This document shows, one piece after another, positions 848 to 57,700 of a DNA stretch of 64,000 nt. Location: assembly GCA_037179385.1 (NCBI GenBank), contig CM074200.1, positions 36,087,884 to 36,151,883 of the forward strand, read 5' to 3'. The translations under genes and the position numbers were made by a program. Each line of letters opens with the position of its first letter. Positions within the stretch are counted from its first letter, which is position 1. Under the pieces are notes generated by a model, which was given only the letters and a program-made list of their open reading frames with translations, did not search any database and was not told the DNA's origin. This stretch comes from Holothuria scabra. Its lineage: Eukaryota > Echinodermata > Holothuroidea > Aspidochirotida > Holothuriidae.

Positions 848-3800
848 CGCAATCATTAAACCGCTTGCACCGTGGTAGTTGTCAATCCATCCCTGTTTTA
901 AAAAGTAAAGAATCGGTTTCGTAAGTTCAACTGTGGTTTACCATGCAAATTTTTCATCTTTTTATTTCGAGTAGGAAGTAGAGGCGGTACTGTTTACATT
1001 CCAACAAATGATAATTTGCACAGTGTGAAATGAACTAATGTGGCGTCATGGCGGGATGTCTGGGCTCATGGTGTAAAATAGGCCTAGACCAAAGATCGCG
1101 GCTTTGTTTGAAAACTAAGTCCTTTTGACCAAACAACTCTCTGGACTAAAAGAGGGTAGGCCTACAAGTTTTCATTTATAGCTGTCGGGGTGGGGGATTC
1201 AGAGAGGGTATACCACCCCACCCCCTTTGGATATTTTCGTCTCCTTCATAAGGCTGACATGCGTAATTATGCTCTTTTTGAAGCATTTCGAGGAGTGTTT
1301 AAACATGGATATTCTCAATGAGAGTCATTGTTGCAACATCTCACCTTGATCCAACAGTGCATAACCTGAGAAAGTCAATCGGCAGTGGTTTTTTCAAAAT
1401 TTGTCACATCAATAAATATGACAAGGGGCTACGGTTTCCTAACCATACCACGGGATCATTATGCCTCTTGTCATGTCTATGCTCATTTTCATATATATTT
1501 TCATGTTATAACAATAGTTGTACTTACTGGGAAAGGTTCCCTCCAGGTTGCCCCTACAATTGAAGGTCGTATAATACTAATAGGAAGCCCGTAACCTTCT
1601 GTCACAACCGCGTGTTCTGCGATGGCCTTAGTGAAGGTGTATGTATTTGGCTTTTTCTGTAAAATGGAGGGCGTAATCAGTTTAACCATATCGTCTGTCA
1701 TCCACCTGTTCAAACAGTTTATAGAAAATATTTATCATTTAATCGACAAAGACACTACATATTACATCATGTATTTGAATAACTCTGAGAAATAAGTTCG
1801 TCGATCTTTTCGTTTGATTATTGCGGTACCATAGCAATATGTTCAAGTCTATATAACCCGTGTCGGTAAAACGTAATGTCAATATTTGTTGGGTGAAAAT
1901 AAGGACAAAGTAAATACAAGGACTGATATGGGGCGATGGTGGGGGGGGGGGGCAATAAGACATGTCCCAAATACTTAAACAACCTCTCACTGAATCTTAT
2001 TTTTACGCATATTTTCTTCGGAAATGAGTAAATTTCCCTCTTCCAATTTACTGAGAGCAAATAGCCATGTGATATATGCAATTATCCTAATAACAGCAGA
2101 AAATTTAAGTTTAATAGAGGACAATTTTTTTTTGTATAAAAACAGTTCTCTCATTCATGTTTACAGACAAATGGCGTTACGGATGTTCAACAACAGAGTT
2201 GCTGAGGCGCGCTTACTTTTTAATCACAAAAGAATGTAAACTCGAATTCGTCTGCATTCTGTGTGCAAGATTGCTGTTCGATCAAAAAGTAATATGCATG
2301 TATATGTTCCCGCACATGCTCTATGTCAACCAATGAAGTAACCATGAATGAGGGAATTGCATAAAATTAGCACTTGCTTAAAATTCAATTTGAATGAGGA
2401 GGCTTACTCTAGAGAATACTGTAACTGTTCTGCATCAATAGGGGGTTCGTAGATGGCTTCATCAATGTGAGGGCGCTCGCAATGGGCGTAGGCTGTTGAG
2501 ATGTGTTGGTAGGTCTGTGAACGTAAAAACGTACAAAATATATATGAAACTTTCGTCGATGATTAAATAAAAAATTTTAAGTTATGTACAAAATTTTAAG
2601 TAATGTACAAAACTTTTTTATAAGGCTTATATAATTTACCCAAGCAATTTGAAAATTTTACTTGCTCTGGCACAAACTGTGCCGGAACGTTTATGGGTTT
2701 ATTCTTATCCAATAGACCAACGACAAAAAACAAAAAGCGAAACAAAACAAAAAGGAAGTGCTCTTCCATAATTATGACATCACAATCTCCATGTATTGTT
2801 GTGAAGATTTGTCTCTCACCTCTAATTTCTTCATTCCTTTTGCTATTTTCATGAGTTGTTTTGTGGCTTCAACGTTCAGTTGAAGTGACAATCTGCAAGT
2901 AATGAGAAGCATCCATCTATCATTTCTTACTGTTTCTTTTTAATTTTTGTTTCTTTTAGTTCATATTAACGATTTACATGGCTTTATGGTCCCAACACTC
3001 TAAGAATAGATGGGCAAAAATTACCCAATGTTGGGGAAACATAGCACATGACACATTTTTGGCAAACTTCATTGAATATATTGGGCAAAATTTACGAAAT
3101 AATAAGGCAAAATCGTTGTGTTTTGCCCAACCTTTAGCAATTTTCTTCCCCAATAATGTAGCATGTGCTATGTTTGCCCAACTGTTTTTAGAGTGAATGG
3201 ATTTGCCTAAGTTAAACTTAATACTCCAACAAACAAACAAACGAACACAAACAATTGGAAACAAATTGACGAACACAATCAAACGCTTTGAAAATTCCTA
3301 TTCTTTAACAAAGATTATGCAGATTGTCGCTTTAGGAGGAGGGAGGGCCCCACATTTTACTTGGAATTATTCCTGAATTTATTAACTGTATCTAAGTGTT
3401 AAACGTGAGGCCCGTAACCAAGGTTACGAAGGAGGACCAAAACTTTTTCAGTTTTTAGGCCAAATGTGTAGAAATGTAGTAAGTCAATGGCAAACTTTAA
3501 AGTCTTTAGGGAGTGAAAAAAATTGGGGGCTCGGCCTTCCTTGCCACCCCCTCCCCCTCCGGCTACGGTCTTGTTTAAGTAAACGTTTACCATGATGTAT
3601 CATTCCTTACTTTAATTTCTCGTCAAACTTGATGGTAGCTGCGACATGAAACACCACAGATACTTCATCCTGTAGCACCCTGATGTCGTCACGGCTAAGA
3701 CCTAACTCTGTTTTTGTCAAGTCTCCAGAAACAGGTATTATCTTCCTGATGTAATCGGGGTTATGTCGGTGAACATTTCGGAATAGCTGTGCAGAGTAAA

Positions 3801-6800
3801 ATTTAATTGTAATTGTTATAAATGAAGGCGAAATACAATAAAAAAAAAATGGAAAAAAGTTACAAATAACAAGATAACATGAAATAGCTAAGTTGTTACT
3901 AATGGTTCCGTCTCATCTCAGTCTAACAAGCTTATATTCTCTTTATTATTTGGAAAGTTTATTTCTTTATAGGTACTTTATTGCGTAAAACGAAAATATT
4001 TCGTCAAGCTAAAATATGACGGACGAAGACTTAGATTATGTGTCCCACATGTACCTCATCCATTTTCTCAATAAAAAACAGAATGAAATCAGGGGCGGAC
4101 CTTAAATTTTGACTGAATCGATAATGACTAGTTTTCGGTTAAAATTTTTCCACTCCATGGAAAATTTAAATTGGTCCCCAATTTCAATCTGAAGAGTGTT
4201 TTTTCACCCTACAGGTTTTAGGGAACAAGTTGAAACCACGGATTCTGTAACTTTTCAACCATATCAGAACCCCAAATACTATAATTTAAACCAAGCACTC
4301 CGTCTTCGGAAAGTCTATCGTGAGTGTTCACGCCGGAGGCTGACAACTAACACTTTATATTCCCTTACTGCAGTACAGTGCAACTTATCATATTAGCTCT
4401 TCCAACTTGCCCTCTATAATTGATTGTGTTACTTCTCTCAGGCCCGGGTTCTATTCCCGGGTTGATTCATGCCAAAGACTCTAAAAATGGAACCTGCCCA
4501 TGTGCGTGATGCTCCGCATAAGCAATGGAGTAGGGAAAACAAGCTAGAAAGTCACTACTGAAAAAATGGCTGTGGCCGGCTCGACATGAACCAATGGTTT
4601 CAAGTTGAAAACTGGGCCGTAAACTCTATCCAACTAAATAACCAAATGTATCACTTTTCTCAAGAAATCTTAGAAAAACGACGAATACCTTCAAAGTTTA
4701 GATAAAACTTTGTGCACGTTACATAAGTATATACGGTATTGTCAGATTGATATTTGTCAAATAAGTGCATTGCCAACACTTGCTTCGGTCATGGGGCTAG
4801 TACTTCGTCAAACTTTTACTAGTATTAGCTCCAAGCTTCAGTTATATTTAAACTTACTTCGCAATCCCCAAATTCGTTTTCAAGTCTTTTGACTGGGTCA
4901 ACACCCTTCTTGGGTCGAATGAGAACATATATTTTGTCTAGATCACTGCAACTCCGAAGCAACTTCTCGATGAGAACTTTTCCAACAAAGCCTGTGCCTC
5001 CGGTGATGAAAATGGATTTCCCGGCAAAGAAACCAGCTACGTCGGATTCACGTTGGGCAGGGTATACTGAAGTGGAAACCTCCGTAAACTAAGAAAAACA
5101 AGAAGAAACCAACACATAGAAGGGTGATTACTATCATAAGTAGTGCAGCCACGGAGGGGCATAAAAAAATAATTTACTACAAAAGTATTTGAAGTGATAT
5201 TTTTGTAAAGATGTAGTCAGGTGTAAATTCACAGAAAGCATCAAATTAAAAGATATTCGGGAATTTCATTTCCTGCGACAAGAGATGTTTACGCCAACAT
5301 TTACCATGCAAGGCTGGGGGCCAACTGATGGCAGCGGTCCGCTTAGATATGATATGTCCTACATCAGTACGCCAGCCCAATTATTAAATTCTGCAAGCGC
5401 CCCTATACTAATTGGGTGGGTATATCGAGAGATGAGAGATAAAAATTATTATTAATTATTTGCACTCTTTACATTTATTTTATGCACTTTTATAGCCCCA
5501 TGTTGTCACAAGATATGAATTAACAGAGTTTAATTTCTAACGAAATCGCTGTAATTCCTCTAAAAACACTCAAAATTGAGACTTAACGACCACACTATTG
5601 AAAATAAACAGTATATCATAATATATACTAGTTGCACTGTATAAATAAGCACGACAAAGGTTAAGCCGCGGTCACACTAGAACGAATTCCGATCCGATTT
5701 TTGTCAGTTTTTAAAAATATATATCTTCTCCATCTCTGGTGGGAAAGAACCCCAAATTTGCCAACGTAAGTAAATATATGAGTTGTACTCCATTGTTATT
5801 AAAGTTAAATTGTGCTTTATTTTTCCCTGACGTCACATCGACAGAAAGAATTTATTGGACTACGCTGTCCGATAAGATAAAAAATGTATATCGGTGAGAC
5901 GTCACGAAAAAGGAACTGAGTAGTTTACTTTCATAGACATTACTTGCAAGTTAGTAGATAATTTTGAGGCTCTTGCTGACCAGAGTTGGAAAAGTTTTCA
6001 ACAAAAACTCACAAAAATCGGATCGGAATCCGATTCGAATTCGCTGTAGTGTAACCGCGGCTAGCAGGTTTGCACACTGAGTAATATTGTCTTTTTTTCT
6101 AGCGAAAAGACGTCACAGGTATTTACAGGTCATTGATGACTGACTTTTGAACACTATATACAGCATGAAATATGTCTTGCGGTAAAGTGAGATCCCCTCT
6201 CCATCTCTGGCGTCCCTCTCGGTAGAATGCTAACTAATTTTGGGACACAAACGCTGCGAGTCTCCTATATTCGAACAATTGACAAAATTCGCCCAAAAGC
6301 AAGTACCGTGCCCATAAATTAAGATAGATAGAACTATCTATACACATTTATTGTTTTAATTGTTGTTGCAAAGCAGTCAAAACCATCGAGCTTCTTCCAG
6401 GGGTGTCGACTTGGTTTTCAAAGTGGAGGTGGGGAGACATGTGGCCTAAACTTTCTCTCCTGTCCTGGTAAGGTGTCCACAGCGGCTCAGTAACACATTT
6501 TGGGCGGGGAGGGGGCAGGTAAGCATCCAAATTTTACGATTTTTAAGTGTGAATACCTCTGTACTAAGGACGCAATTTAGGGCGCGAAGCGTGCTGAAAC
6601 TTTGGCCCTTTTTCGAATATTTGGAAATATTGGAAAAGTTTGGATTCTGAGTTTCCTGGAAGAAGAATTTGTATATCCTGTTGGCAAATTTGAGACTGAG
6701 CGACGACCAAAGATCTTTGTTGCTAGATAATGTTATCCGACGCATTCAAAATGATGCTCTCCGACGAAACGTTTTGAGTCAAAAGCTTAAATTTGACAAA

Positions 6801-9430: not shown

Positions 9431-9448
9431 AAAATATGTAGTAGATGT

Positions 9449-9686: not shown

Positions 9687-9726
9687 CAGGTTCAGGTTCA
9701 GGTTCAGGTTCAGGGTTAAGGTTCAG
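9687..9726. repeat. (TTCAGG)n hexamer tract
   Basis: Four to six TTCAGG units, one changed to TTCAGGGTTAAGG, directly abut the TTC tract, so the hexamer probably arose from it. Confidence 0.9.
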
Positions 9727-24608: not shown

Positions 24609-25654
24609 ATGATCAAGATTGACTGAGGAACGGGTCCTTTGGAACAGTTCCAATTCGAAGGAGACCCAACAACGCAAGCTCAAGATGGCGTACATGGAAG
24701 CAGTCAATACAAATACTGATTACGGCGAAAGGTGTGACTGACCCGAAACAGAAGGAGGCCATACTTCTACATGTTGGAGGCATGAGACTTCAAGAGGTCT
24801 TTTTTACACTACCAGACTTAACCCAAGATGGATGGGCTGACCTCGACGCATACGAAAAGGCCGTTAAAAAACTGGATGCATACTTTGCGCCAAAAGTAAA
24901 TGAGGCATACGAACGGCACAAGTTCAGAAAACTAAAGCAACAGCAAGGAGAGTCGGTGGCTCATTTTGTGTCGAAACTACGTGTACAGTCGGACTTATGT
25001 AATTTTACCAACACGGCGGAAGGGGAGAAAAATGTGCGAGATCAGCTTATTGACGGGTGCATTTCAGATAAACTGAAAAAGCTATTGTTGGAAAAGGGGA
25101 ACGATCTGACACTAGAAAAGGCCATCAGTATTGCCAATTCTTTGGAACTGGTCCAACGGCAAACCGAAATCATGTCTGACGCAGCAACAACGCATATGGC
25201 CCAAGGACGTAACGCTACGAAACCACAACAGTACCGGAGGAATGCCACTAGTAGTAGTAAGGCACGATTTTCTAATGGTAGTAGCAGTACCGGGGCGAAA
25301 CCCAAACAGAAGGCAACCCATGTAAAAAGAGAGTGTTACAGGTGTGGACGTAAATCACACAGTCCAGATGAATGCTGGTTCAAGGACAAGGATTGTCATA
25401 GTTGTGGAAAACGGGGACACATTGCCTCACAGTGCAAGACGAGGGGTCATATTAAGAAAGGGAAGAATATCAACACTATTTCCGAAGAGCGCCATCAGTC
25501 AGAAAGCGATGATGAAACCGTACTCATGGCATCATTTGGCAAAGGCCCAAGCAGTCCCATTACAGCCCACAATGACAGTAAATGGACAGTCTCTGGACTT
25601 CGAGGTAGATACAGGGGCAACATACACAGTGATCCCAGAAAACATTGCCAATAA
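24609..25654 (+). pseudogene. Gypsy gag (broken at its N-terminal end)
   Basis: The main open stretch runs to the stop at 25654 and is open from about 24623. It encodes a capsid-like region (ILLHVGGMRLQEVFFTLPDL) followed by two CCHC zinc knuckles, CYRCGRKSHSPDEC and CHSCGKRGHIASQC, which bind RNA. An ATG at 24609 is followed five codons later by TGA, and gag-like sequence changes frame near 24680, so the N terminus is disrupted or initiates unusually. The 3' end overlaps pol in another frame around 25560. I describe the breaks only. Confidence 0.88.
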
Positions 25655-26519
25655 TTTGAAGAATATTCAATTAAAGGACACGAGAGTTGATTTCAAAAGT
25701 TTTACAGGTGAAAGAATTAAACCAAAGGGAATCTCACAAGTTGAAGTTGAGTACAATGGTGAAGTGTATGATTTGAATGTTTTTGTTGTAAAAGAGACAA
25801 CACAGTTACTATTAGGGAGAGATTGGCTAGCGAAAATAAGGTTAGACTGGCCAAAATTATTGAAAGGTATACATAATGTACAACATGTAACCGACCATCA
25901 TGCTGAGCTAAATAGTATCCTAAAGGAGTATGAGAGTTTGTTTGATGGGAAGTTAGGAAGGCTTAAAGATGTTAAAGCCAAAATAGACCTAGTCCCAAAC
26001 TCCACCCCATACATGGCAAAGTGCCAAAGGGTACCATATGCAATGAGAGAAGAGGTAAACCAGGAAATAGATAGACTGGTAAAAGAGGGAATTTTGACCC
26101 CAGTTGAAAAAACGGATTGGGCAAGCTCAATTGTGACAGTGAGAAAGACCAATGGGGGGATTAGAGTTTGTGGTAATTATAAGCCATCAGTTAACCCACA
26201 CTTGAAACCTATCCCTCCCCCTAACATCAATGTTGAGGATATTTTGTCAAGCCTGGCAGGTGGGCAAAAATTTACAACATTAGATTTGGCACAGGCTTAC
26301 AATCAGATGGAATTGGAAACCGAGTCAAAGAAGCTTTTGACAATTATCACTGAAAAGGGGCTCTTCCAACCTAACAGGTTAACTTATGGGATAACCTCAG
26401 CACCAGCATTGTGGCAAAATACCATGCAAAAGGTTCTCACTGGACTAGAAGGAGTAATGGTGTACTTAGATGACATTATTGTCACAGAAAAGATAAGAAA
26501 GAACATCTTACAAATTTGA
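25560..26519 (+). pseudogene. Gypsy pol, part 1: protease and reverse transcriptase palm
   Basis: The open frame includes the aspartic protease motif VDTGATYTVIPE, then reverse transcriptase blocks FTTLDLAQAYNQMEL, LTYGITSAPALWQ and the catalytic YLDD in VMVYLDDIIV. It ends at TGA 26517-26519. The coding signal continues in another frame, placing a one-base break at about 26490. Open sequence 5' of about 25560 in this frame is only the shadow of gag. Confidence 0.92.
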
Positions 26520-27100
26520 AAAAGGTGCTGACCAGACTTGAAGCAAATGGTTTGAAGCTCAGAAAGGAAAAATGTAGGTTCTTTCAAGAATCTGTATCGT
26601 ATTTGGGACGAGTCATTGACAAAGATGGTGTCCATAAGAATCCAATTAAGACAGATAAGATTCTCAATATTCCGTTACCAGAAGGTGTGTCAGAATTAAG
26701 ATCTTATCTGGGAATGATGAACTACTATCAATCTTTTGTACCTAACTTGTCTTCCATCTTAAGACCCTTATATACTATGTTAGAGAAAGGCAAAAAGTTT
26801 GAGTGGTCAGACAAAGGTAAAAATGCATTTGAAAACTCCAAACGGGCATTAGCTGAATCAGGGTTTTTGACACATTACGATGTCAACCTGCCCATCAAAG
26901 TGGCTACAGATGCCTCTCCAAGTGGTATAGGGGCTATTCTAAGTCATGTAATTGACGGTCAAGAAAGACCTGTAAAAATTGCATCACGATCACTAAGCAA
27001 GGCAGAGTGTAATTATCCACAAATTGAGCGGGAAGCTCTTGCGATTGTTTTTGCATTAAAAAAGTTTTATCCATACATATATGGGAGGCACTTTATCTAA
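26490..27100 (+). pseudogene. Gypsy pol, part 2: RT thumb and RNase H
   Basis: The frame resumes after the 26490 break with the RT connection (LGRVIDKDG, LRSYLGMMNYY) and RNase H (KVATDASPSGIGAILSH, then IEREALAIVFALKKF). It stops at TAA 27098-27100. RNase H sequence continues as LITDNKPLTVIFG in a third frame from 27097 to about 27215. Confidence 0.9.
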
Positions 27101-27214
27101 TTACGGACAACAAACCATTGACCGTAATTTTTGGTCCAAAGACAGGACTTCCAGTACTGGCAGCGGAGAGAATGCAAAGATGGGCGTTGTACGTTGCTAT
27201 GGGATTTGATTTTT

Positions 27215-28678
27215 GAAATAGAATTTAGGAGCTCTAAGGAAAATGCAAATGTAGATTGCTGGTCTAGGCTGCCCACAGAGCCAGCACCAGTTGAAAATGG
27301 CAATGAGGAAGCAAACCTCAGTTTTATGGATGCTATAGAGATATTACCAGTAGAAGCAAAAGAGATCAAACAAGAAACTGCCAAAGACAAAGTGTTGTCC
27401 AAAGTAAAGGGGTACCTACTTCATGGTTGGACAAATGGTGAAAAGGGATTGGAACCCTTCTATTCTCGACGAAATGAATTATCAATAGAGAATGGGTGTA
27501 TCATGTGGGGTATTAGAGTTGTTGTACCGCCAAAATTGCAAACTAAAGTGTTAAAAGAGTTACATTGTGGACACATGGGAGTCGTAAAAATGAAAAGTAT
27601 TGCAAGGTCATACATTTGGTGGCCAGGTATAGATGCTCAGATTGAACAATTGGCAAAATCATGTGATGCATGCCAGCGTATCCAGGGTAAACCAGCACTT
27701 GTCCCAACCCACCCTTGGATGCCTGCAAGAGATAAGTGGGAGCGCATTCACATAGATTTTGCTGGGCCATTCATGAATTACATGTATCTAGTGGTAGTCG
27801 ATGCATATAGTAAATGGCCAGAGGTAATCATAATGGATTCCACTACAGCTGAGAAGACCATTGAGGAATTAAGAAAACTGTTTAGTACTTGGGGCCTACC
27901 ACAAATCATTGTGTCTGACAATGGACCCCAATTCAAATCTCAAGAGTTCAAAAGATTTGTTGAATCAAATGGGATTATTCACAAATTTTCATGTCCTGGA
28001 CATCCGGCTACAAATGGCCAAGCCGAAAGATTTGTCCAATCAATGAAACAAGGGTTAAAAGAATCTGTCACTGATAAGTCTTCAGTTCAAACAAGGCTGA
28101 GCAAATTCTTATTGGCATATCGTAGTGCTGAACATAGCCTCACAAAGCAGTCTCCTGCTCACTTGTTTCTGAAAAGGTCTCTAAGAACTAGGTTAGACTT
28201 AGTTCGACCAAGACATGATGAAAACATAAGGGAGACATTAAGTGAGGTGATGGAAAAGTCAGCTGCAAAGCGCAAACCAGTTAGAGAGTTTCAGAGCGAA
28301 GATTTAGTGTATGTCAGAGATTTCAGAGGCCAAGGTAAACACAAGGTCAAATGGGCACCAGGAGTTATTGTAAGCAGGGAAGGTCTGCTGAAATACAAGG
28401 TAAAAGTTGAAAGTCAGTTTTGGTTGCGACATGTAGACCAAGTTAGAAGTCGATCCGAAAAGGGTGATGAACAGGAAGTAGAGGATGATTTGGGTGATTT
28501 GATAGATCGGTTATTGGAAGAGAAAGATGAAGTGGTAGTGGAGAGAAATGAGAGTTCTGTGGATAGTAGTAATCACAGGGAATTTGCAAGTAGAGGGAGA
28601 AATGAGGAAGGAGTAGTAGAACGAAGGAAATCACAAAGAAGTCGAAAACCTACACGCAGATATATTGAAGAGTGTTAA
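27215..28678 (+). CDS. Gypsy pol, part 3: RNase H end and integrase
   Basis: An open frame to TAA at 28676-28678. It starts with the RNase H end (NANVDCWSRLP), then the integrase zinc-binding HHCC (HCGHMG and CDAC). The catalytic DDE core is D in HIDFAGP, D in VSDNGPQF and E in GQAERF. A C-terminal domain (HKVKWAPGVIVSREG) and a basic tail (RKSQRSRKPTRRY) follow. The frame is also open upstream to 27131, but that part is shadow. It would be made only as part of a Gag-Pol polyprotein. Confidence 0.93.
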   Translation, partial: EIEFRSSKENANVDCWSRLPTEPAPVENGNEEANLSFMDAIEILPVEAKEIKQETAKDKVLSKVKGYLLHGWTNGEKGLEPFYSRRNELSIENGCIMWGIRVVVPPKLQTKVLKELHCGHMGVVKMKSIARSYIWWPGIDAQIEQLAKSCDACQRIQGKPALVPTHPWMPARDKWERIHIDFAGPFMNYMYLVVVDAYSKWPEVIIMDSTTAEKTIEELRKLFSTWGLPQIIVSDNGPQFKSQEFKRFVESNGIIHKFSCPGHPATNGQAERFVQSMKQGLKESVTDKSSVQTRLSKFLLAYRSAEHSLTKQSPAHLFLKRSLRTRLDLVRPRHDENIRETLSEVMEKSAAKRKPVREFQSEDLVYVRDFRGQGKHKVKWAPGVIVSREGLLKYKVKVESQFWLRHVDQVRSRSEKGDEQEVEDDLGDLIDRLLEEKDEVVVERNESSVDSSNHREFASRGRNEEGVVERRKSQRSRKPTRRYIEEC

Positions 28679-31414: not shown

Positions 31415-31606
31415 CAGGGAATAATTTATCCAGCATAGCATCACAATTTGCTTCACGAACAGGCCAAGTTGCTACACAAATGAAAAATTGCATATCAATT
31501 CTTGAATCTTTGGGTGTATAACCTTGCATTTTCACAAACAATGGTTGGAAGACCTCGCAAATCTTCAAAACTGCTATGCAAAATTTGAATGCTAGATTAT
31601 TCCCTG
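31415..31606. mobile_element. CAGGGAATAATTTA MITE, copy 1
   Basis: A 192-bp unit starting CAGGGAATAATTTATCC and ending ATTATTCCCTG, flanked by the 5-bp duplication TTGCC (31410-31414, 31607-31611). It is in opposite orientation to the copies at 43765 and 50713. An ORF reads through it on the minus strand but is not conserved between copies. Confidence 0.9.
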
Positions 31607-35921: not shown

Positions 35922-36585
35922 CATAACATAACAGGATTTAAGGGCAAAGGAGGGCTATAAAGGTGCCATAAAATGCTCTGTAATCCAAGACCCCCCCAAA
36001 ACAAAGAAGCAAATCACCAACACTTAAGGAGCCAAGAAAGAAAAGATTCTACCACATTCATGGAAAAACATGTCAATGTTTACCTTAAAGTGGTGCACTG
36101 GTATGGAGTTGACATCTCACTCAGGCACCAGACTGTAAAGTTTGGTTGGTGCGGGGAAGGGCAGCCAAACTGCCTTGCTTTTCCGTCCGCGCTCTTTGGC
36201 AAATTTTAGTGGAATCCTCACTCACCTTTTACTGTTTTTAAGTTGTTCCCCGCTCAACTGTACCTTTGCTAAATGTTGTGCCTTTGTATTGCATGAATCA
36301 GGGTTGGCATTAGCAGCAGAATTGCGGGATTCATGCAAGAAGGTATCAGTTTCCGCACAAAGTAAACTTGGGGAGGGGGAATTCAGCAGAAAACATGAGC
36401 TTTCCTTAGGAATCAGTGCCAAAAGAAGGTCTGGTTTTGACAATTACTAGTAAATGGTCAAAAGGTCAAACTGGCAAACTTGGAATTGTTCATGCAGTAA
36501 GAAGGAAAAGGTGGGAAGGGGTGGCTGTATATGGGTTATAACATTTTTTGGTTTCGATGAAAAGAGAAACCTATGCATTCATGAT

Positions 36586-36673
36586 GGCGTGTGTGTGTGT
36601 ATGTATGTGTGTATGTGCGTGTGTATGTATGTGTGTATGTGCGTGTGTGTGTGTGTGTGTGTATGTGTGTGTT
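36586..36673. repeat. (GT)n microsatellite with AT/GC variants
   Basis: GTGTGT, GTATGT and GTGCGT units directly precede the 145-bp array. The His/Thr-rich and Cys/Val-rich ORFs across it are artefacts. Confidence 0.95.
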
Positions 36674-36689
36674 TTTGTGACACTTTGCT

Positions 36690-38750
36690 TGTTTACACGA
36701 TATCTTGAGAAGGGAAGATCTGACAATTCTCAAACTTGGTACACAGATACCCCATACTGTGAGGAAGAACCCTATTGATTTTGGTGGAGGTCGAAGGTCA
36801 TCTGGGGTCACAGGGGGTCAAACCCCGAAATCCTTGTTTACACGATATCTCAAGATAGGAAACTTGGATTAATTTCAAAGTTGATACGTTGATGCGTTAT
36901 GATATAAGGAAGAACCCTATTGATTTTGGTGGAGGTCAAAGGTCATTTGGGGTCACAGGGGGTCAAACCCCGAAATCCTTGTTTACACGATATCTCATGG
37001 TGGGAAAATTGGATTAATTTCAAACTTTGTATGTTGATGCGTTATGATGTAAGGAAGAACCCTATTGATTTTGGTGGAGGTCAAAGGTCATTTGGGGTCA
37101 CAGGGGGTCAAACCCCAAAATCCTTGTTTACACTATATCTCATGGTAGGAAAATTGGATAAATTTCAAACTTGATACGTTGATGCATTATGATGTCAGGA
37201 AGAACCCTATTGATTTTGGTGGAGGTCAAAGGTCATTTGGGGTCACGTGGGGTCAAAACCCGAACTCCTTGTTTACACGATATCTCATGGTAGAAAAATT
37301 GGATAAATTTCAAACTTGATATGTTGATGCATTATGATGTCAGGAAGAACCCTATTGATTTTGGTGGAGGTCAAAGGTCATTTGGGGTCACGTGGGGTCA
37401 AACCCCGAAATCCTTGTTTACATGATATCTCATGGTAGGAAACTTGGATTAATTTCAAACTTGATATGTTGATGCGTTAGGATGTTTGGAAGAACCCTAT
37501 TGATTTTGGTGGAGGTCAAAGGTCATTTGGGGTCACATGGGGTCAAACCCCGAAATCCTTGCTTACACGATATCTCGTGGTAGAAAACTTGGATTAATTT
37601 CAAACTTGATATGTTGATGCGTTATGATGTAAGGAAGAACCCCATTGATTTTGGTGGAGGTCAAAGGTCATTTGGGGTCACGTGGGGTCAAAACCCGAAC
37701 TCCTTGTTTACAGGATATCTCATGGTAGAAAACTTGGATTAATTTCAAACTTGATATGTTGATGTGTTATGATGTAAGGAAGAACCCTATTGATTTTGGT
37801 GGAGGTCAAAGGTCATTTGGGGTCACATGGGGTCAAACCCTGAAATCCTTGTTTACATGATATCTCATGGTGGAAAACTTGGATCAATTTCATACTTGAT
37901 ATGTTGATGTGTTATGATGTAAGATAGAACCCGATGTATTTTCGTGGAGGTCAAAGGTCATTTGGGGTCACATGGGGTCAAAACCTGAAATCCTTGTTTA
38001 CGTGATACATTGTGGTAGGAAACTTGGATTCATTTCAATCTTGATAGGCTGATGCTTTATGATGTAAGAAAGAACCCAATTTTATTTTCGTGAAGGTCAA
38101 AGGTCATTTGGGGTCACATGGGGTCAAAACCTGAAATCCTTGTTTACATGATACATTACAGTAGGAAACTTGGATTCATTTCAATCTTGATAGGCTGATG
38201 TGTTATGATGTAAGAAAGAACCTGATTTATTTTCGTGGAGGTCAAAGGTCATTTGGGGTCACATGTGGTCACACCCCGAAATCCTGGTTTACACTATATC
38301 TCAAGGTAGGAAGCTTTGATTGATTTCAAACTTGATATGTTGATGCGTTATGATGGGAGGAAGAACCCTATTGATTTTGGTAGAGGTCAAAGGTCATTTG
38401 GGGTCATAGGGGTCAAACTCAGAAAACCTTGTTTAGGATAGCTCAAGGTATGAAAGGTGGATGGATTTCAAAATTAGTATGTAAATGAATTATGGTGAGA
38501 AGATGGTCTGTATAAGGTTATTTTTTGTGGATGTGAAAGGATATCTGGGGTCATGATCGGTCAAACTTTGAAAAACTTGTCAAAATGGGATATCTCCAGG
38601 TAGGAAACTTGGATGGATTTCCCAATTAGTATGTTGATGTGTTATGGTGAGTTGAAAGTACTGTACCTGTTGTTTTTGGTGGAGGTCAATGGTCATCTGG
38701 TATCACCTGGTATCAAACTCTGAAAACCTTGTTTGCAGAATATCTTAAGG
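36690..38750 (+). repeat. 145-bp tandem satellite array with DR1 motifs
   Basis: GAAGAACCC (or a variant) begins units at 36764, 36909, 37054, 37199, 37344, 37489, 37634, 37779, 37924, 38069, 38215 and 38360: a period of exactly 145 bp with one step of 146. Two degenerate units follow. Eleven units (36909 to 38360) contain a perfect AGGTCAAAGGTCA, a nuclear-receptor direct repeat with one spacer base, followed by two GGGTCA half-sites. Each unit also has TTGTTTACACGATATCTCA or similar. Confidence 0.96.
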
Positions 38751-40268
38751 CACAGTATGAAAGAAAAACCAGTCAGTTACAGGTGGAGACAAAGGCTATT
38801 TTGGGTCACCAGTTGTTACAAGAAATGTAGCATTTTATTGAAAAGAGCATGTATGTATCATCGAAACCTCAATGCATTTTTGCATTCTGGTTTTTTATGC
38901 TGTGGAAGGCACGTGTCATTTTTTTCCAAGATTTGACTTTGCTCGAGTCTCCCCCCCCCCAAGATTCTCAGAACCCCCTCAAAATTTTAGACTAAGGGAG
39001 GAATTCCCCCCTGAAAATTTTGAGCTGGTGCTAACCCTGGCATGAATGCACAACTACCAAAGCTGTTGCATTCTCAGCAGTATCCATATGCATACACATA
39101 CTCTATACTGTATAGTGTATGCTGAGAATGCCTGTGGTATGCCATGCGTATATGCCACAAGCATGCCACGCACAAGTTTTTTTTCTTAGGACAGCAAGGG
39201 GAATTCTACTGTACAGTATGTTCACATACCTGTACGTGTGGCATACTGTACTTGCACCATGGCATACATGTTTTTGTATGCTGGGTTTTCCAATCAGCGT
39301 ATGTTTTCCATTTCTTGTTCATGTTCCCTAGCAGAAAAAAAACTAAAAAAGTTTACAGTCTGGCTCAGGCAGGCTGTTCCACTCATTAACAACCCTATGA
39401 GAGAAACTAAACTTCCTATTGTCAAGGCCAGCAAAAGACTTATTGAGCTTTTTACAATGGCCTGTAACCCAATGATTACTTTGGGCTGTTAAATAACTAC
39501 GAGCTGACAAAGGTTTCCCTTCAGAAAGAAATTTGTTAACCTGAAGCATTTTTCCCCTAATCTTTTTTAGCTCCTGTGGTTAGCCCAGAACAGAACCTTG
39601 TGGTACACTACTTGAGACTGTTTTCCAAGAAGAAAAATTGCCATTGAAAAAAAACCCTCTGAGACCTACCATTGAGCCACTAATTGATCCACTGAGCACA
39701 CTTGCCTTTGATACCTTACCTATGCAATTTTACCATGAGTCTACCTTGAGGTACTTTGTCAAGTTTTTGGAAGTAAATGACATCACCACTGGAACCAGAA
39801 TCGTCTACAAACATCCTCAAGATAGGTAAGCAAATTTGTAACACAAGACCTACTGGATAGGAAATTATGCTGAGCCAGACTGATTAACCCAGTGTCTAAA
39901 AGATGCTTGAGCAAACAGTCCTTGATTAAGGATTCCATAATTTTGCCCACAAGACTAGTTAAACTGACTGGCCTGTAATTACAAGATGAGCTCCAACCCC
40001 CTTTTTAAAAATTGGAGTGACGTTAGCAACCTGCCAGTCATCAGGAACAAATTTGATTCAAGACATTCCTAAAAAATAAAATTAGCAGAACTGATAAAAT
40101 CTCAGAAAATTCACGAAGAATGGGGGGATGCTTTCCACCTGGCCCCGGAGCCTTACTTATCTATAAACTAAATTTTTTCACAACCAGTTCCTCAAAGAAA
40201 TAGGCGTATGCTACTTATTTAAAATCAGTGACTGGAATTGACATCATTTTAGATGACTCTCAGCTTAA

Positions 40269-42789: not shown

Positions 42790-44110
42790 CAAACTTGTTC
42801 ATAATGTTTTTCTTCCAATGTGCTTCCATGAATCTGATTGAAATCTGGCCACAATGTCCCTTGGGTGGTGGGGCCCATGTGGGGTGCTCAGGAATTTTTG
42901 GTCCCAGGTCCCATGTGGCCCATTTCATGATAATCTGCAAAATGCTTCTCTTCCAGCAGTTCTCTTGTACAATGCTGATGGTTTGTCGTAGTGATACAGT
43001 ACTCTATGAGAAGTGCCGTTGAGGTGTTTAGGAATTTTGAGTTCAAGGGCCAAGATTGTCCGGAGGGTCCATGTTGTAAAATATTGCACAATAATTTTTT
43101 TCCTTACAATTTTTAAAACAGTTGACAGCCTGTCATAAAAATGCGTGGCTGATGGATTGTTTATGACATTCTTGAATTTTGGTTCATGGTTCCATGTGGA
43201 CCCCAATATGACCCATTCCTTGAAATTTTGCAAAATGCTTCTCCTCTTACAAATTGTGTTCCATAATGTTGATGATTTGTCATGTGATCCAATGATCCTC
43301 TGTTAATAGTTTAGAAAGTTTCTGTCTAAGGCCCAACATGTGCCCTATGGGCCATATTGTGAAGTATTACAAAATGGTCAGTCCTTCCTCAACTTAATGT
43401 CAGACAGAGCTGCCAGCCTGTCATAGTGTCACTTGTGATCATACGGTGTTCTGGAAGCTTAGATCTAAGGTTCCATGTGGACCTTATGGCCCTTTTTTAT
43501 AAAATTCTGTAAATTGCTTCCTCGTAAATATTCTCTTGAACAGTGTTGAGGTTTGTTACAGTGATTATGATGTTCACTTAGGGGCACCTTCAGGTTACTC
43601 CTGACTCCTAAGGTGTATGGAGTCCAAGGCTGAAGGTGAACCATGGGGTCTGTTTTTTGAAGTATTGCAAGTGATTAACTTTTCCCCCAGATAATTTTGA
43701 ATAGAGTTGAAGGCCTGGGATAGTGATGCTTGGTTAGTGATCTGTTTACATTTTGGGGCATTTTCAGGGAATAATTTAACATTCAAATTTTGCATAACAG
43801 TTTTGAAGATTGTTGAGGTCTTTCACACATTGTTTGTGGAAATGCAAGGGTTATGTACACAGAAATTGCTACACAATTTTTCATTTGTGTAGCAACTTGG
43901 CCTGTTTGTGTAGCAAATTGTGATGCGATACTGGATAAATTATTCCCTGATTTTGGTCCAAGGTTCCATGTAGGCCCTTTATATAGTCCTTTTTATGAAA
44001 ATCTGTGAAATACCCCTTCGACTACAGATTGTCTTGTACAGTGTTGATGGTTTGCCTGAATGGTACTTGGTTAGTGGTTCCTTTAGATGATAGTGTTTTC
44101 AAAACATGGA
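42790..44110. repeat. Old degenerate satellite, monomer about 140 bp, dimer about 281 bp
   Basis: GGT(T/C)CCATGTGG(A/C)CC recurs at about 42907, 43188, 43470 and 43968. A second landmark (TTTGTC/CCTGTC...AGTGAT) recurs about every 140 bp from 42985 to 43713 and again near 44052. Copies are strongly diverged. The last interval is lengthened by the MITE at 43765-43949. Confidence 0.75.
43765..43949. mobile_element. CAGGGAATAATTTA MITE, copy 2
   Basis: A 185-bp unit with ends CAGGGAATAATTTA and TAAATTATTCCCTG, and TSD ATTTT (43760-43764, 43950-43954). It is inserted in the degenerate satellite. Confidence 0.9.
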
Positions 44111-48749: not shown

Positions 48750-51700
48750 ACCTCCAGCACCATGAACATTCCTGTGGCTGACTACTATGCCGGCAAGACT
48801 ATTATGCTTACAGGGGGGACTGGATTTATTGGTAAAGTACTTGTTGAAAAAATACTTCGTTGCTGTCCAGATGTTGATAAATTCTACTTGTTAATCAGAC
48901 CCAAAGCTGGTCAAGATCCACAACAGCGAATCAAGAAAGAATTTGTTGAATGTAAGGTGAGTACAGTTTCAGGATAACAAACTTTTGAGTCTTTTCATTT
49001 CCATCATTTTCCCAAGAGTATAAAATCCTGTCTTTGACTAAACCTTTTCCTGGTCTCTTATGAGCAGAGATATCACAATCCCCCCTTTTTTGGAAATAAC
49101 TTTGATGGAGAGAAATCACTGGTTCTCTTATGTTTTAATAGAATTTTTTGCTCTGAGAATCTAGGAGAGTTTGTTTTCACTCGTTAGATGATTTTATCCC
49201 AGCCAGGAATGTGGCTACAATGGTCAACAGTGGTCATCTTCTGCCAAAATTGGTAACTGCTGACCACCACCACAGAGGAAAATGTACAAATGAATACACT
49301 TGTGCACCTGTGTAACAAGCACTCCTGTCCAAGCTGTTGGAAAATGATGTTGCGATAACTTTTCTTACACTGCCATCACTTCAGTAGATAAAACCACCAC
49401 TTATAATTAGTACTAGCTACAGAGATTATGCATGTGATGTCAGCATATTTCACTGGATGGAAATGATCAAAGCCAGTTATTGTGTTTCAGAAACGCACAG
49501 CAACACTTTAGTACCAATTGTTGTAAAATGGATGCCTGGATGGAAAAACAGAGATGCTTTAGGCAGTGGCATAAGTGCATAAGCCCTATAACTCTGATCC
49601 CACCACAAATAACCCTTCAATCCAATACATTCATCCCATGGCAGTATGACCTACTTTAGAGTTCTAGCTATGTATAGGGATTCTGAGTGTCAGCCCTCCT
49701 GCTTTGTTAGTGTGGTATGCAAAAACAGTGTGGTTCTTTTATCCCTTGTGACCTTGGTACTGTAGCTACAGCCCTACTAAGGGCAAGGAGTATTTTAGAA
49801 AGTTTTGCTTGCAATATTAGTCAAATGGTCTAGAGAATGATCATTTTCCATCAAATGAGCAGATAAAAATGTGGATAGTTTTATATTACTGTAAAATATA
49901 TTTCTACCAATTTTTAGACATGAAATTTTCATTGAATTTTGTGCAGGATGATAGACTGGGGATTTGATCTTCATTCAGTTTGACAAATGTCAGTGCCAGT
50001 TACAGCCATCTGTAGCTGGTGGCTTGGCTAGACTAGAGTCTTTACCGTATGCTACTGTGTTGTACTGTACGTGAAAATGTTGACAATTTTATAGAACTGT
50101 GTGAAAGACAGGATTTTGTTTATCCTGGCAATTTGGTGGATGTGCACTTATACCAATGATTTATTAAACTTGCACATATGTATAACAACGCAGCTCAATC
50201 AAAGTTTGATTTAATAAAAGTGACAGGCTGCATTGGGTTAACATGTTAACATGCATCAGTGTGGATAAATTTGTGTTGTCCTGTATAATATGATCAAATA
50301 AGATGTGAAATGTTTCAGGAATATTTGTTTTGTCAACTGCTTTGTGGTTTTACATTTTAATAGGGTGACAGTTGACTGCTTATTGTGTTCTCATCTGCAT
50401 AAATCTGTGAATGATAGAATTCTTAATTGCGCACTCCACAATACACTGAGTGTTCTTTTCCACATTTTTGGATTGTCACTCATGGTGAATTGGTTGCTCC
50501 TCATGGGAAATGGTTTTAAGTTTGAAAAATGTGAGAATTAAAATATGTAAAATGGTCTAACTTTTCAGATGCAACCTAACACCTCTCTGAATAAACCAAC
50601 CATGTGTTTCAATTTCTGCAAAGGTTTTTAAAAATGATTTTGTTATCTAAAAGACATTTAACTCTTTCCAGTTTTGAATGCTTTTTGTTTTGCATTATGA
50701 CAGATCATTTTTCAGGGAATGATGTAGTGTTCAAATTTCGCATAGCAATTCTGAGTTTTTTGTCAGGTTTGATGGTAAAATGGTTGGAAACCCTATGATT
50801 TTATGTACAAAATCTGTTATACAAAATTGTATTTGTGTACCAATTCAACCATTTTGTGTAGCAAAATGCGATGCGATACTGGATAAATTATTCCCTGTAG
50901 TCTACTTTGCTCCTACTTACCTCACCTGCTTCACAAATGGACTGTTCCATTTACCATGGAATACTCACTGGCAATGTCTTCTGTAGGTGGGGCTATGCCA
51001 TTTTAAAGAAAATAGTTTGCTAGTGCAAAATGTTTCTAAGATGTAATTCAAGTTGTTAATTTCAGTGACTAATACTCACATGTTTCTCTCTCCTCCTCTG
51101 TTCACAGCTGTTTGATAAACTAAGAAAGACTCAACCCAACTTTGACAAGAAGTTAATACCAGTGAGTTGTGAACTTATAAAGCCTAAGCTTGGCCTTAGT
51201 GATGAAGATGAATCCAGATTACAGGAGGAAGTCCATATAGTATTTCATTCTGCTGCAACGATAAGATTTGACGAGAAACTGAAGTATGTTCAAAGTTTGA
51301 AGCAAAATATTTAATAAATATCAGAAGAGTTATTTGTTGTGGTCAGGAAAAGGAATTCCAAAGCTTTGGTTGAATTGTACTTATCCTTTCTGGGGTACAG
51401 ATGACAGCTTGCCTTAAAATGTACAAAGCACCAATGTACTGTCACCTCTAGCATCCTTATTTTTTTTTGTGAAATCCAAAGAAAGGGGGGTGGGGGAAAT
51501 ATGATGGGAGGTGGGGGATGGAGAGGATAAATCAAAATAACATTTTGATAGCAAAGTTTTGTAGTTACGGTTGTTAACAGAGTTCAAGGGACAAAATAGA
51601 GGGAGTGAATATTATTTTGTGACAAATAATTAAATGGTTTTAGGACTTTACCAAGTACTGATTTGCGCTAAAAGTTTGACCCCTGCCCAATAGGAAACAT

Positions 51701-54700
51701 GTGAAGTATGTACTAACAAAAATTTCTTTTTTATCTAAAGATTATCTCTGGAATTAAATGTAGGAACATGCCTTAAGTTGATGGACCTGGCTCGCAAGAT
51801 GAAACGATTAGAGGTTTGTAAAATTTTATTAAAACAAATGATTCAATTTAAAAACATGCCGTTTTCCAACAACTGCTACTGATGTCACTGGAGAAGATAA
51901 AATCTGAGCACATGAATTCATAAAGTACATGTAAGATGTAGATCCATATCCACTCACACTTTAAATAAAAAGCATAAAATTATTAAATTTTGTCAGTAAA
52001 TTTGTACAATTTTTACAACTTCTGATCACCATGCGTAATTTTGGCTACTGATGCTGTAATATTATGCCATTTACTGGCTTACTGTTGGTGCTTGCTAGGT
52101 TGATATCTGTGTGCACTTGAGCTAGCTCAACCTGACTTGAACAAAACATGATATTATTGATTCAGAATGGGCCAAAAGTAGAAAGGCCTTAAAAATTTTG
52201 TGCTGTTTTGCCTTCTAGAAAAATGTTATCAAATTCCAGTTTACCTACTGTTATGATTTTCATCATTTCCATGTTATGATTCAATTGTGAGATAATTGTT
52301 TTTCGCCTAATAAAAATCTTAAAACCCATGAGAAATCTTGGAAAATTACAGCATCTGGCAAATCAAGGAGTTTTCCAAATGGTAGAAAACACATAATGTG
52401 AACATGTCTTGACTTTCCTTTTGATACTATGAAGTAGAGATAGTACTGTTGATGTGAGGCACAAGTCTTTGTGGCTCCACTTCATCATCTCCTATGTAAA
52501 TTTTCACATGTTGCTTACAAGTCTCCCTAGCATGGCTCCTCTATAAAGCTCTGAGATCCCACCCTCCACCTTACATCTTTACTCTTTTCATCATGCCTTG
52601 CTTTGAGCAGGATATATTATTGCTCCTGTCTGGCTTCAGAGACAGTTAGTTAGATTGGGTTTTGTGTCTTAACAAACCTTCTGGTTAAATGTTGTGACAC
52701 CCACAGCCTTTTAGCCAGTTGTAGGGCACTTGATTGCTTTCCCTACCCAATTGCTTGTGAGAATTTTTAAATAGTGCTGTCATCTGTCCAAGACATTGCC
52801 TCTAAAGGGAAAATGCTGCCACCCAAATCTGAATTAATGGATCCTGATAGCCTTATCCATAAATGGCTCCTGTAGTCATGGGACAATTTTTTTTTCAGGA
52901 ATAGTGTTATAACTAGTCTTATTTCTAATGGTTAAAGGTTGTTTTTTGTAAATGGCACTAAAGCTACAGTATGTGAAATTGAAATAATAGGAAATTTGCA
53001 TTCTTCCTTACCATTCTGTTTGAGGAGGAATGGTTTCTGTTTTCCTCATCTTTAAAACCCATAAAAATCAGAATGTTCTGATTTATACTTTGAATATCAA
53101 CTTACTTATTCAGAAATGATTAGGGAAAGCAGCAACAGCTTGAAATGTTCAAATTATCTCTATCTTTTCCAACATCTTAGTTATTTCCATGTAAAAGCGG
53201 AGAAAATGAGTGTTGCCCACCCCCCCTCCCCCATTTAGGTTTAAAGTGACATGGGTCATCTGCTCTGCTCTCAGAGATAGCAATGTTGGCAAGTTTGTAT
53301 TCAAAGGAGTAGGCTGATGTGTCAAAATATATTTGAGGGAGATTTCGTTCCCTTGATATAATATTGAAAGAGTAAAAGTACATTCCTTCTATTTGCCAGG
53401 TCTATGAGCACGTATCCACTGCATATGCACACTGTGATAAACAACATATAGAAGAAGTATTTTATCCGCCACCTGCAGATGTCGACAAATTGATGGATGC
53501 TGTCAGGTATGAAGGCTCTCTGTTATTTTGGAATTAAGTAAGCATTTTAAAATTTTAAGATAGCTGGAGCCAAGTTTTACAACTGTGTTGTAATTCGTCT
53601 ATCATTCGTGAAAAAATTATTATGCAGACCAGGAAAAGATTTTATGGTGTAAGTTACCGTCGTATATTATGTAATTCCCCAATTTAGTCAGACCTGATTT
53701 GAAAATGGCAGATTGAGCCATGATTTGCATTGTCCTTGTTTTTCTTTGTATTCTGTAATAGCTACTGCATCTTATGCCAATATGTCATTACTTAATCACT
53801 GGTATAGGAATACTTGATTATGCAAACACACTCTGTCCATCATATTTTCCTAGAAAACACACATAATTTTTCAAGGACATACAAACATGTTTCACTTCAA
53901 AAAGGAAACGAGCAGGAAATTTTAAATGCTAAATAAAGGGTATTACACGATATTGCACCATGGACAGTTTCAAAGTATGTGAATAAATTTCAGCACTTTA
54001 TATGGGATATATGCCATGACAATTGGAGTTGAATGTATAATATTTATTTTTCAACCTCTTAAATATACATTGCTTAAATTTTGGGCTTAAGGTCCATTAA
54101 AATTCTTGTAAATTGGGAAAACAGGCCTACCTCAAAAACATCTTTATTAGACAATGGTTGGAGTACCCACCTCTCAACTGGCGGTCCAAGGCTCAAATCT
54201 TGGTTTTGGCATACCAAAGTAATATAGTTCAATCACATGAAATTTTTATTCAAATTTCAAATTTGAAAGTTAACAAGTTGGCTACCAACATGAACTAAAG
54301 AGTAGACAACAATGGACCATTCATTAGCAGAGGATAATGCTCTTTGGCAGCATCCTCAAGCACTCTTGCATTAACCCTGATCATGCATTATTCTAGTCTT
54401 TTGCACAGTTTCAAAATCGTTAACCATGTTCATTCATGCACTATGAGATTGTCATGAGAAATTGTTAATAGGAGAAAAACTTTGTTGATATATGTCCACA
54501 TTATGTCGGCACTTTCCCAAGTAAGCTGTAGCAGGCTCAGATGAATGTGTTTATCCATTACTGTTAGTTTATATCCTGATGATGTACTGTAGAGCATTGT
54601 AATGGACCAGTGGAACTGCAATGGACCAATAGAATTTGTGGTTTCATTAAAAGTCCATGTGAAAACTCTAGGCTGCAGCTGTCTCAGCTAAGCTGCAGTC

Positions 54701-57700
54701 ACCTCAGCTAAGCTATTACTACACAAATGACAATAGCAGGATTAAACTGGGCTGATATTGTGATGAGTGTTGCAACAAACAGGGATTCCGCCAGAAACAC
54801 AAAAAAGGGGGGGATTTATTACTGCTAAACCCCAAGTCCAAATTAATGCTGTCTAAGGCTAAAGTTATCAGTGGGTTCACAGGGACAAAAGCTTGCTTCA
54901 AGGCCCCTGTAAGGTGCAATTAGAAGGTTTTAAAGGCCATTTATTTTTGTAAGTTCAAACATTACTGCAAAGGTTGTCTTTTTAAGTAAGAAACCAAGAT
55001 ATTGACAATTTTCTAATTTTTATGGAAATGAAAAAGGGAGGGGATTTTACCCACCTTCTTCTGGAAAGGGGGGGGGGACAAATCCCCCCTTTCCCCCCTC
55101 TGATGGAAACCCTGGCAACAAAGTATGGTTACAGCTACTGCAGTCTGCAGCTTAGCTGAGGGAGCTGCAGCGTGGCTGTTATGATATGATTTCTATCTGT
55201 GAATGAACTATTGTTTAAACGTGTATTTCTTTCTGCCTTGCAGCTGGATGACGGATGATATGGTTACTAACATCACACCTGAGTTGATAGGAAAGAAACC
55301 AAACACGTACACATTTACAAAAGCAATCGCAGAGCACAAAATTATGGAATTAGGGAAAGGTTTGCCTATTTGTATCATCAGACCATCAATTGTTGGAGCA
55401 ACATGGAAAGACCCCTTCCCGGTGAGTTTGTGACACTTTTATGGCAAAAGGTTAACTTTTGAATGTGTGAGAAAGAATCAAGGTGTGAGCTAACAACTCT
55501 TTTGAGTATGTAGTTTTCTTGATGGTGTTATTGAAATTTACAGTTATGTAAATAGTCCTCAGATTTACTAAAGATAAATGAATCCAAGGTTCCTTAGAGA
55601 AAGTACATTGAACATGTCCATAGTATTTCCTGGGTGATGTAAGAGGTGACTAAAGGGAAACATTTGAACTGTATTTGACACCAAACTTCAATTTTAATAA
55701 CCTTATTATCTAGTTGACACTCTGTAACACAATCATGTTGGTGTAATCATCTTACTTACAAACAAGAAAATTTTATCTTGAAACAGAAAGCTTTGCAACA
55801 AAAACACAAATTCTATGGATATCATTAGTTGTATTGATATCATAAACCTTTGATTTTTGATCTCTCCTTTCAGGGATGGATTGATAACCTCAATGGACCC
55901 AGTGGCCTATTTATAGCTGTAAGTCAACCCTTAAGTATGTGTGTATTCATTGCAAACATATTTTCCAATATGAATTCTATCTACTGAATTCCACTTGCTT
56001 TGTTTAAAACAACTTCCTTGGTTCCTCTCTTGTGTTTCAAATTCATGTGTTTCCAATACATGGACAGAGCATACTGCACTCTATATTGTTGGTACCATAT
56101 GTGTGAGAGAAAGCGCACCAAGATGGCTGTCTGCTATGGTTTTGTGTAAAAGTGTAGACTAGCTCAAGTCAATTTCTAGATTTTGCAACAAAGTTGAAAT
56201 ATTTTTGAAATATCGCAAGGTAGGGTCAAAATCACTTCACGTAGTGCAGGAATATGATATTCTTTCCCATTCAAGTTTAAAATATAACAGAGTCCTCATC
56301 AAATCAGATGATGTATAGCTCTACTGTGGCCATCTTGATGTGCCTTTTTTGTCCCAGCAGTTGGAGACAATCTATGTATATGACATACATGTTACATGCT
56401 CTGTCCATGTATGTAACTCTGTGGCTTTACAGCATTCAGATAAACAAGTAACAAGTTTATTAAGGCCTGCAAAACTTAAGCAGAATCTGTTGCAAAATAT
56501 TGTACATGAACATGACAATGTTCATGGACAAATGTATTATTGTGTAGACAGTGTTTTACCTGGGATAGACTACCATAATGTATGCCATGTCAAGGATTCT
56601 CCCAGAAACAAAAAATGGATGGATTTATTACTGCTAAACCCCAAGTTCAAAGTGTTTCTGTCCTAGGTTACAGGTATGAGTGGGTTGTGAGGTACAAAAT
56701 CTTGCTTCATGGCCCCCCTGTAAGGTGCAATTTGAAGGGTTTTAAACACCATTTATTTATGTGAAGTTAAAACACTTCTGCAAAAGTGTCTTCTTTTTAA
56801 GTGAGAAACCAATGATTTTGTAATTTTTGTGGAAATAAAAAAGGGGGATTTTACCCACCTGCTGGAAAAGGGGAAGCAAATCCCTCTTACCTCCTCTGGC
56901 AGAAACACTGGATGTGAAACCATGCTATTTATGACAACAATCTCTACACTCTAATGATTGAAATTTGTCCAGTGTGTGTCACTCCTCATTGCCTCCTACA
57001 GTATTTACACATGCGATTCCTCAACTTGAGAGAGGAGTGGGTTCCCCCTGTCAGGCAGAGGGTTCTATCCCAGTGCTAAAAGATCTTATGCCAGTTGGGT
57101 TTTGCAGGTAAGTAGTGGAACTATTTCTCTAAGTATGAGGTTATGAGGAGAGAAACTTAACAATTATGTAAGTTTTGCTGATTTTTTTATTCCATTTGTT
57201 TTGGTTGTTTTTCTCCCAGTGTGGTAAAGGTTTTATAAACACTATGATTGGTGATAAGGACGTAGTGTTTGATTTGAATCCAGTGGACTTTGTTGTCAAC
57301 ATGATGGTTACTATTGCCTGGCATACTGCTATAACAAAGTGAGTAATATTAGTTTATAACAAGTGATGTGGTTGAGTCTAGCCTTGGCCTTGGAGTAGCC
57401 AACCATGAGGTCTCCACCTATATTGTGTTGCAAGCTTCTTTTCTATGCTTGCCTCAGCCTTAGGATTTCAGGTCTTGACTACAACACTATTTCATATCAT
57501 ATATACTTGATGCAAAATACTTGATACCTCTTGATATTGACTAAATTTGCTAGCAAAAGCTTTATTTTTAATTCCCAATTGATGAGAGAAGCATTGTCAG
57601 TTTTGCAATATAAATGTGGGTGTTCCACTCCAAGTGAAACTTTCTCCAGCATGTCACAATGTAGATTGGTTGATATTGCACTGTTACAACTTGTTACCTA

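Follow-up and report, generated by a model that had tools for sequence, protein, structure and literature searches.

The window discussed here is a 64,000-nucleotide stretch of DNA from Holothuria scabra, and it carries two divergent fatty acyl-CoA reductase genes, referred to as FAR-A and FAR-B, whose NAD_binding_4 pieces occur in the same order (Table 1). FAR-B is known in part, from three recognised exon pieces. About 43.7 kb separate the two genes, and in this interval, beside Gypsy-like frames and LINE copies, lies a tandem array of 145-bp units within a non-autonomous DNA transposon. The candidate FAR-B start (48762) lies 9.9 kb beyond the array, and on the other side the closest exon piece assigned to FAR-A is 31.6 kb away; the NAD_binding_4 pieces found from 48750 on the plus strand agree with the initial annotation, which had placed FAR-B 10–12 kb downstream of the array.

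A dispersed repeat occurs in two inverted copies (31415–31606 and 43765–43949, arms 92% and 88% complementary), one on either side of the transposon and some way from it, and a possible third copy was noted by eye, from translated likeness, near 50.8 kb. Large frames that look Gypsy-like by eye occupy 24623–28678, and the first of these, the one that was scanned, gave no Pfam match. Long frames of a non-LTR retrotransposon lie on the minus strand at 61035–63949, and the scanned frame matched RVT_1 (E 4.5e-34). At 9448–9687, TTC is repeated 80 times almost without interruption (98% matches). For the open reading frame pieces at 57172–57339 and 58842–59132, a Pfam search at E 0.001 gave nothing.

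Table 1. Coordinates of the features described, numbered from the first nucleotide of the window.
Feature	Position	Strand	Evidence or remark
FAR-A, three exon pieces	1504..5088	-	Pfam NAD_binding_4, E 1.1e-16, 3.9e-14, 2.1e-11
LINE (non-LTR) copy split by the transposon	35922..39900	-	internal deletion of its own; match reaches the examined edge, 39900
Target-site duplication CTCAGGCA, left	36120..36127	.	identical to 39364-39371
Non-autonomous DNA transposon, 3236 bp	36128..39363	+	target-site duplication, terminal inverted repeats, empty site
Left terminal inverted repeat	36128..36143	+	first 12 bases perfect, 15/16 overall
TG-rich microsatellite, just ahead of the array	36589..36672	+	repeat search
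Tandem array of 145-bp units	36688..38830	+	TRF and unit alignment; one left partial, 12 core and three degenerate right units
First of nine intact DR1-DR4-DR4 clusters	36933..36965	+	spacing search
Starts of intact DR1-DR4-DR4 clusters	36933, 37078, 37223, 37368, 37513, 37658, 37803, 37948, 38094	+	
Last perfect DR1 of the array	38384..38396	+	motif search
Degenerate edge units u13-u15	38494..38830	+	DR1 mismatches 4, 1 and 5 of 13
Right terminal inverted repeat	39348..39363	-	inverted-repeat search
Target-site duplication CTCAGGCA, right	39364..39371	.	identical to left copy
FAR-B, exon pieces 48750-48974, 51069-51311, 55203-55430	48750..55430	+	Pfam NAD_binding_4, E 3.8e-17, 4e-13, 1.2e-11

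The limits of the transposon are set by its ends and by the site that it entered. The sequence CCAGACTGTAAA opens the element next to the target-site duplication and, in inverted form, closes it. Taken alone, the inverted-end match score of 27 lies within chance (200 shuffles gave a mean of 23.8 and a largest score of 35), and the terminal inverted repeat is accepted because it exactly abuts the duplication. When the flanks are joined and one duplication is removed, a LINE runs without gaps through the junction and matches the minus strand of 60901–62400. This alignment scores 305 for the joined flanks and 139 for the left flank alone. The right flank alone finds its best match in a different part of the same LINE (score 214), so the split copy appears to carry an internal deletion of its own. 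Since the LINE is continuous across the empty site, the transposon limits are settled, and the duplication and empty site bear out the earlier claim that the array sits inside a transposon.

Classification of the element is less precise. The 8-bp length of the duplication is the one feature that suggests a hAT-like element, and the P and Zisupton superfamilies also make 8-bp target duplications. Membership among the Helentrons, including the HINE type, is ruled out by the target duplication together with the terminal inverted repeats; Helentrons are rolling-circle elements that are not known to have terminal inverted repeats or to leave a cut-and-paste target duplication. None of the window's 22 stop-to-stop frames of at least 110 aa falls between 36120 and 39371, and by this measure the element has no transposase of its own. 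When one unit and both arms were compared with the window by BLAST, every match beyond the element was weak, with E of at least 0.10. Patterns derived from the unit, when sought in viral and prokaryote contig collections, gave one match (L001) and no convincing copy; the 201 bases surrounding that match are unlike the unit by eye, and it was taken as chance.

The array itself was recognised by TRF as a 145-bp-period tandem repeat of 11.8 copies (90% matches) at 36758–38472. Unit-by-unit alignment extends it from 36688 to about 38830, so that the repeat annotated initially is present, with a true span slightly longer than was given. The left partial unit starts at 36688, and the 12 core units run from u01 (start 36758) to u12 (start 38354). 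Neighbouring units differ by 0.098 and those 7–10 units apart by 0.16–0.17, while one pair eleven units apart, a single comparison, differs by 0.200. Such growth of difference with distance along the array is expected of local exchange. The most diverged units occupy the right edge. Searches of the sequence for RNA families at the gathering threshold and for tRNAs (ARAGORN, bacterial code) gave no match.

Another short motif of the array is TGTTTAC, presumably a forkhead-type core, which is present in nine of the 12 core units and in the left partial unit (36690, 36835, 36980, 37125, 37270, 37415, 37705, 37850, 37995 and 38141). These represent 10 of the 16 plus-strand copies in the window and none of the six on the minus strand. 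The array does not resemble a CENP-B-box type of satellite. The CENP-B box is TTCGnnnnAnnCGGG, and this pattern has no match on either strand of the window.

The unit also carries half-sites of the nuclear-receptor type. All eleven perfect DR1 sites reported by the initial annotation were located: copies of AGGTCAAAGGTCA start at the nine cluster positions listed in Table 1 and at 38239 and 38384, and one-mismatch copies occur at 36788 and 38683. With up to two mismatches allowed, AGGTCAAAGGTCA has 13 matches where 2.14 are expected, and 13 was reached in none of 100 shuffles. Treating the eleven sites as independent chance events is nevertheless the wrong null, because the copies descend from one unit. 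The further half-sites that follow the DR1 had been listed before, and the two DR4 elements that they form had gone unmentioned. In the unit consensus, AGGTCA-A-AGGTCA-TTTG-GGGTCA-CATG-GGGTCA, a DR1 is followed by two overlapping DR4 elements, and nine units keep all four half-sites in the DR1-DR4-DR4 spacing. On the plus strand of the window, the first three half-sites in consensus spacing are found in the array only.

With a half-site defined as RGKTCA, as given by Laperriere et al. (PMC1785376), the array holds 49 hexamers, every one on the plus strand, and direct repeats at spacings of 1 and 4 that identify it as a DR1/DR4 array; in all there are 11 DR1, 22 DR4 and one DR3 pairs. By the same definition, no DR1–DR5 pair occurs on either strand in the rest of the window, where three DR0 pairs, all in a short repeat, were the only ones seen. 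These results lend sequence support to the earlier description of a mobile, pre-assembled cluster of receptor sites, in that the transposon is delimited and RGKTCA DR1/DR4 pairs are confined to its array. A half-site-like pair, TGGTCA-AA-AGGTCA, was also noted at 36455–36468 in the left arm of the transposon, beyond the array.

We take AGGTCAAAGGTCA to suit HNF4, RXR, COUP-TF and TR2/TR4, and AAAGGTCA within it is presumably an NR4A monomer site. The consensus makes such candidates plausible, and the sequence does not tell which receptor might bind.

The arrangement of the hexamers is rare in simulated units. At least four hexamers on one strand appeared in 144 of 60000 simulated 145-base circles built from the dinucleotides of the unit and in 68 of 60000 built from those of the window. 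At least three DR1–DR5 pairs per strand appeared in one of 60000 and in none of 60000, respectively, figures to be read as those of a test picked after the motif had been seen, on one unit with one origin.

Conservation among the 12 core units was gauged by counting changes by parsimony on a neighbour-joining tree, which gave 96 changes among 145 columns. By count, the DR1 is indeed less changed than the remainder of the unit, as the initial annotation had stated, with one change in 13 columns (p 0.006 with its position fixed beforehand), but this is weak as a test: in 27% of column permutations some 13-bp window is just as low (p 0.27), and seven of 145 circular windows, including its own, are as low. 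The best 24-bp block has three changes and starts at the DR1 or one column before it (p 0.018 with the search included). The DR1 as sole conserved element is ruled out, as the four hexamers are conserved together; the feature that stands out is the group of four half-sites and not the DR1 itself. These half-sites carry two changes in 24 columns, their spacers four in nine, and the other 112 columns 90. A base-stratified permutation without CpG columns gave p 1.2e-4 for the four hexamers, and placing four hexamers at random gave p 3.8e-4. Circular shifts of the half-site mask are as low at two of 145 positions, its own place included, the one other shift being equal. Freedom of the spacers is thinly supported, since three of the four spacer changes are in CATG, one is in TTTG and none is in the DR1 spacer.

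A maximum-likelihood tree led to 97 changes, five of them in spacers. On that tree, half-site shifts with no more changes than observed number two of 145 for all 12 units, six without u12, two without u01 and u12, and ten with u02–u08 only. For the DR1 alone, the corresponding counts out of 145 are seven, eight, 12 and 26. The effect is moderate in size, and its statistics are overstated because the units are related rather than independent.

The decayed units at the right edge offer a second view of constraint. The perfect DR1 is gone from all three. Half-site mismatches to the consensus are 5/24 in u13, 5/24 in u14 and 8/24 in u15, and those outside the half-sites are 32/111, 22/72 and 42/60. 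For u13 and u14 combined, the half-sites differ at 10/48 positions and the remainder at 54/183 (Fisher p 0.28); with u15 added, the figures are 18/72 and 96/243 (p 0.026), which favours constraint. Thus, the answer hinges on counting u15, a poorly aligned unit with many gaps. Selection on the motif is weakly supported in the homogenised core, where there is a hint of constraint, and meets a mixed answer in the edge units. The u15 count and the thin spacer evidence pull in opposite ways.

Overall, the locus is probably best explained as a non-autonomous cut-and-paste transposon with an internal 145-bp satellite, likely without a selected job at FAR-B. Direct observation covers the limits of the transposon, its integration in a pre-existing LINE, the array and nine intact DR1-DR4-DR4 clusters. 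A transposase supplied in trans from elsewhere would have moved the element, and unequal exchange would have made the central part of the array longer and more uniform while its edges decayed. Judging from the consensus alone, NR2-type receptors (HNF4, RXR, COUP-TF and TR2/TR4) could bind the array, chromatin permitting, as perhaps could DR4-binding heterodimers. Any effect of the array at FAR-B would probably be incidental binding. The half-sites are somewhat better kept than other parts of the unit, through either chance and homogenisation or a weak advantage to the element. By precedent, binding might lead to activation, as at Alu copies (PMC3252374), or to TRIM28 silencing, as at telomeres (PMC13187458). 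This account is favoured by the transposon ends and continuous LINE, the lack of a long frame, the distance-graded divergence with the right edge most diverged, and the confinement of DR1/DR4 pairs to the array. Against it, two changes in 24 hexamer columns are what binding-site selection would leave, the edge units keep half-sites better when u15 is included, and half-sites in direct-repeat spacing are rare in simulated units.

It is possible that the motif is an accident in which slippage produced GGTCA copies 7, 10 and 10 bases apart and homogenisation then spread them. The consensus 10-base pieces GGTCATTTGG and GGTCACATGG differ at only two of 10 positions, as slippage would have it, but slippage alone does not explain the rarity of hexamer changes. 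Such an origin is compatible with, and not exclusive of, the transposon-and-satellite explanation preferred above.

Selection on the half-sites enters two further readings. In one, which we consider doubtful, a host receptor or another GGTCA-reading protein binds the cluster and helps the element, for instance by leaving it accessible to transposition or by anchoring silencing proteins, as orphan receptors do at telomeres. The distribution of changes among half-sites, spacers and other columns, and the scarcity of equally low shifts, fit such binding. NR2F2 and NR2C2 are able to bind repeats of the (TCAGGG)n type (PMC7691514), and orphan receptors are described as recruiting TRIM28 and raising H3K9me3 at telomeres (PMC13187458), yet their telomere role is disputed in PMC7691514. 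Moreover, the spacer evidence is thin, with three of the four changes in CATG and none in the DR1 spacer, the edge units without u15 are not significantly better kept, ten of 145 shifts are as low when u02–u08 are taken alone, and the non-independent units come from one array. In the other reading, a quite unlikely one, the satellite is mobile with a unit that would serve as a compound DR1-DR4-DR4 response element, its half-sites would be selected, and the transposon would sow dense receptor platforms genome-wide.

It is very improbable that either FAR-B or the divergent pair as a whole has co-opted the array as an enhancer. The position of the array between the two genes, ahead of the first FAR-B coding exon that was recognised, would suit an enhancer, and HNF4-site Alu copies can modulate transcription (PMC3252374). 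However, this is a single case in an intergenic stretch shared with Gypsy-like frames and LINE copies, and one position beside a lipid gene cannot show a location bias and carries no weight for an enhancer or a decoy without other copies. There is scarcely any case for a decoy that titrates receptors. The 49 plus-strand hexamers packed into 2.1 kb speak for it, but a lone array of this size is small against a receptor pool, and by the stoichiometry of Bolotin et al. (PMC3252374), in which some 7000 to 46,000 accessible HNF4-Alu matter little against about 225,000 HNF4 dimers, such a role for one array is unlikely.

If receptors do bind, one insertion would add a DR1 and DR4 cluster in a single step, and the locus would provide a clean natural test of dense receptor arrays as enhancer, silencer seed or sink. 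Alleles with and without the transposon would be comparable because it is sharply delimited.

Among the matches listed from the open-licence literature, none describes, in its title or the opening of its abstract, a satellite of DR1-DR4-DR4 make-up. In the same literature, AGGTCAAAGGTCA combined with "tandem repeat" gave matches unrelated by title, and the string GGTCAAAGGTCATTTG gave none. The work on the cNRE (PMC10995137) was weighed as an analogue. Closer parallels exist for the separate parts. For instance, the Cg_HINE non-autonomous Helentrons of Crassostrea gigas are described as likewise having a satellite-like array as the core of a non-autonomous element spread by transposition (PMC7492417), whereas the present element ends in inverted repeats and is flanked by a target duplication of 8 bp. 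The Tetris foldback transposon of Drosophila virilis, with its TIR-220 repeats, is also a class II non-autonomous element whose tandem repeats can become satellite (PMC4079207); in Tetris the terminal inverted repeats themselves contain them, whereas here the tandem repeats are mid-element between short ones. The miDNA4 MITE satellite of Xenopus tropicalis (PMC9659126) is another class II non-autonomous element that houses satellite-prone tandem repeats.

With respect to the half-sites, Alu elements with DR2/DR4 and HNF4 sites are likewise mobile DNA that spreads consensus receptor direct repeats, and the receptor-sink idea has already been discussed for them (PMC1785376, PMC3252374). Similarly, the (TCAGGG)n variant telomere repeats that NR2F2/NR2C2 can bind are tandem DNA made of receptor half-sites (PMC7691514). 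Alu is a dispersed SINE with binding shown, and the telomeric repeat has a 6-bp unit with binding reported, whereas the DR1-DR4-DR4 array described here has a 145-bp unit, resides in a DNA transposon and is known from its sequence alone. Satellite-bearing transposons and receptor-site repeats are therefore both known kinds, and the present element combines the two.
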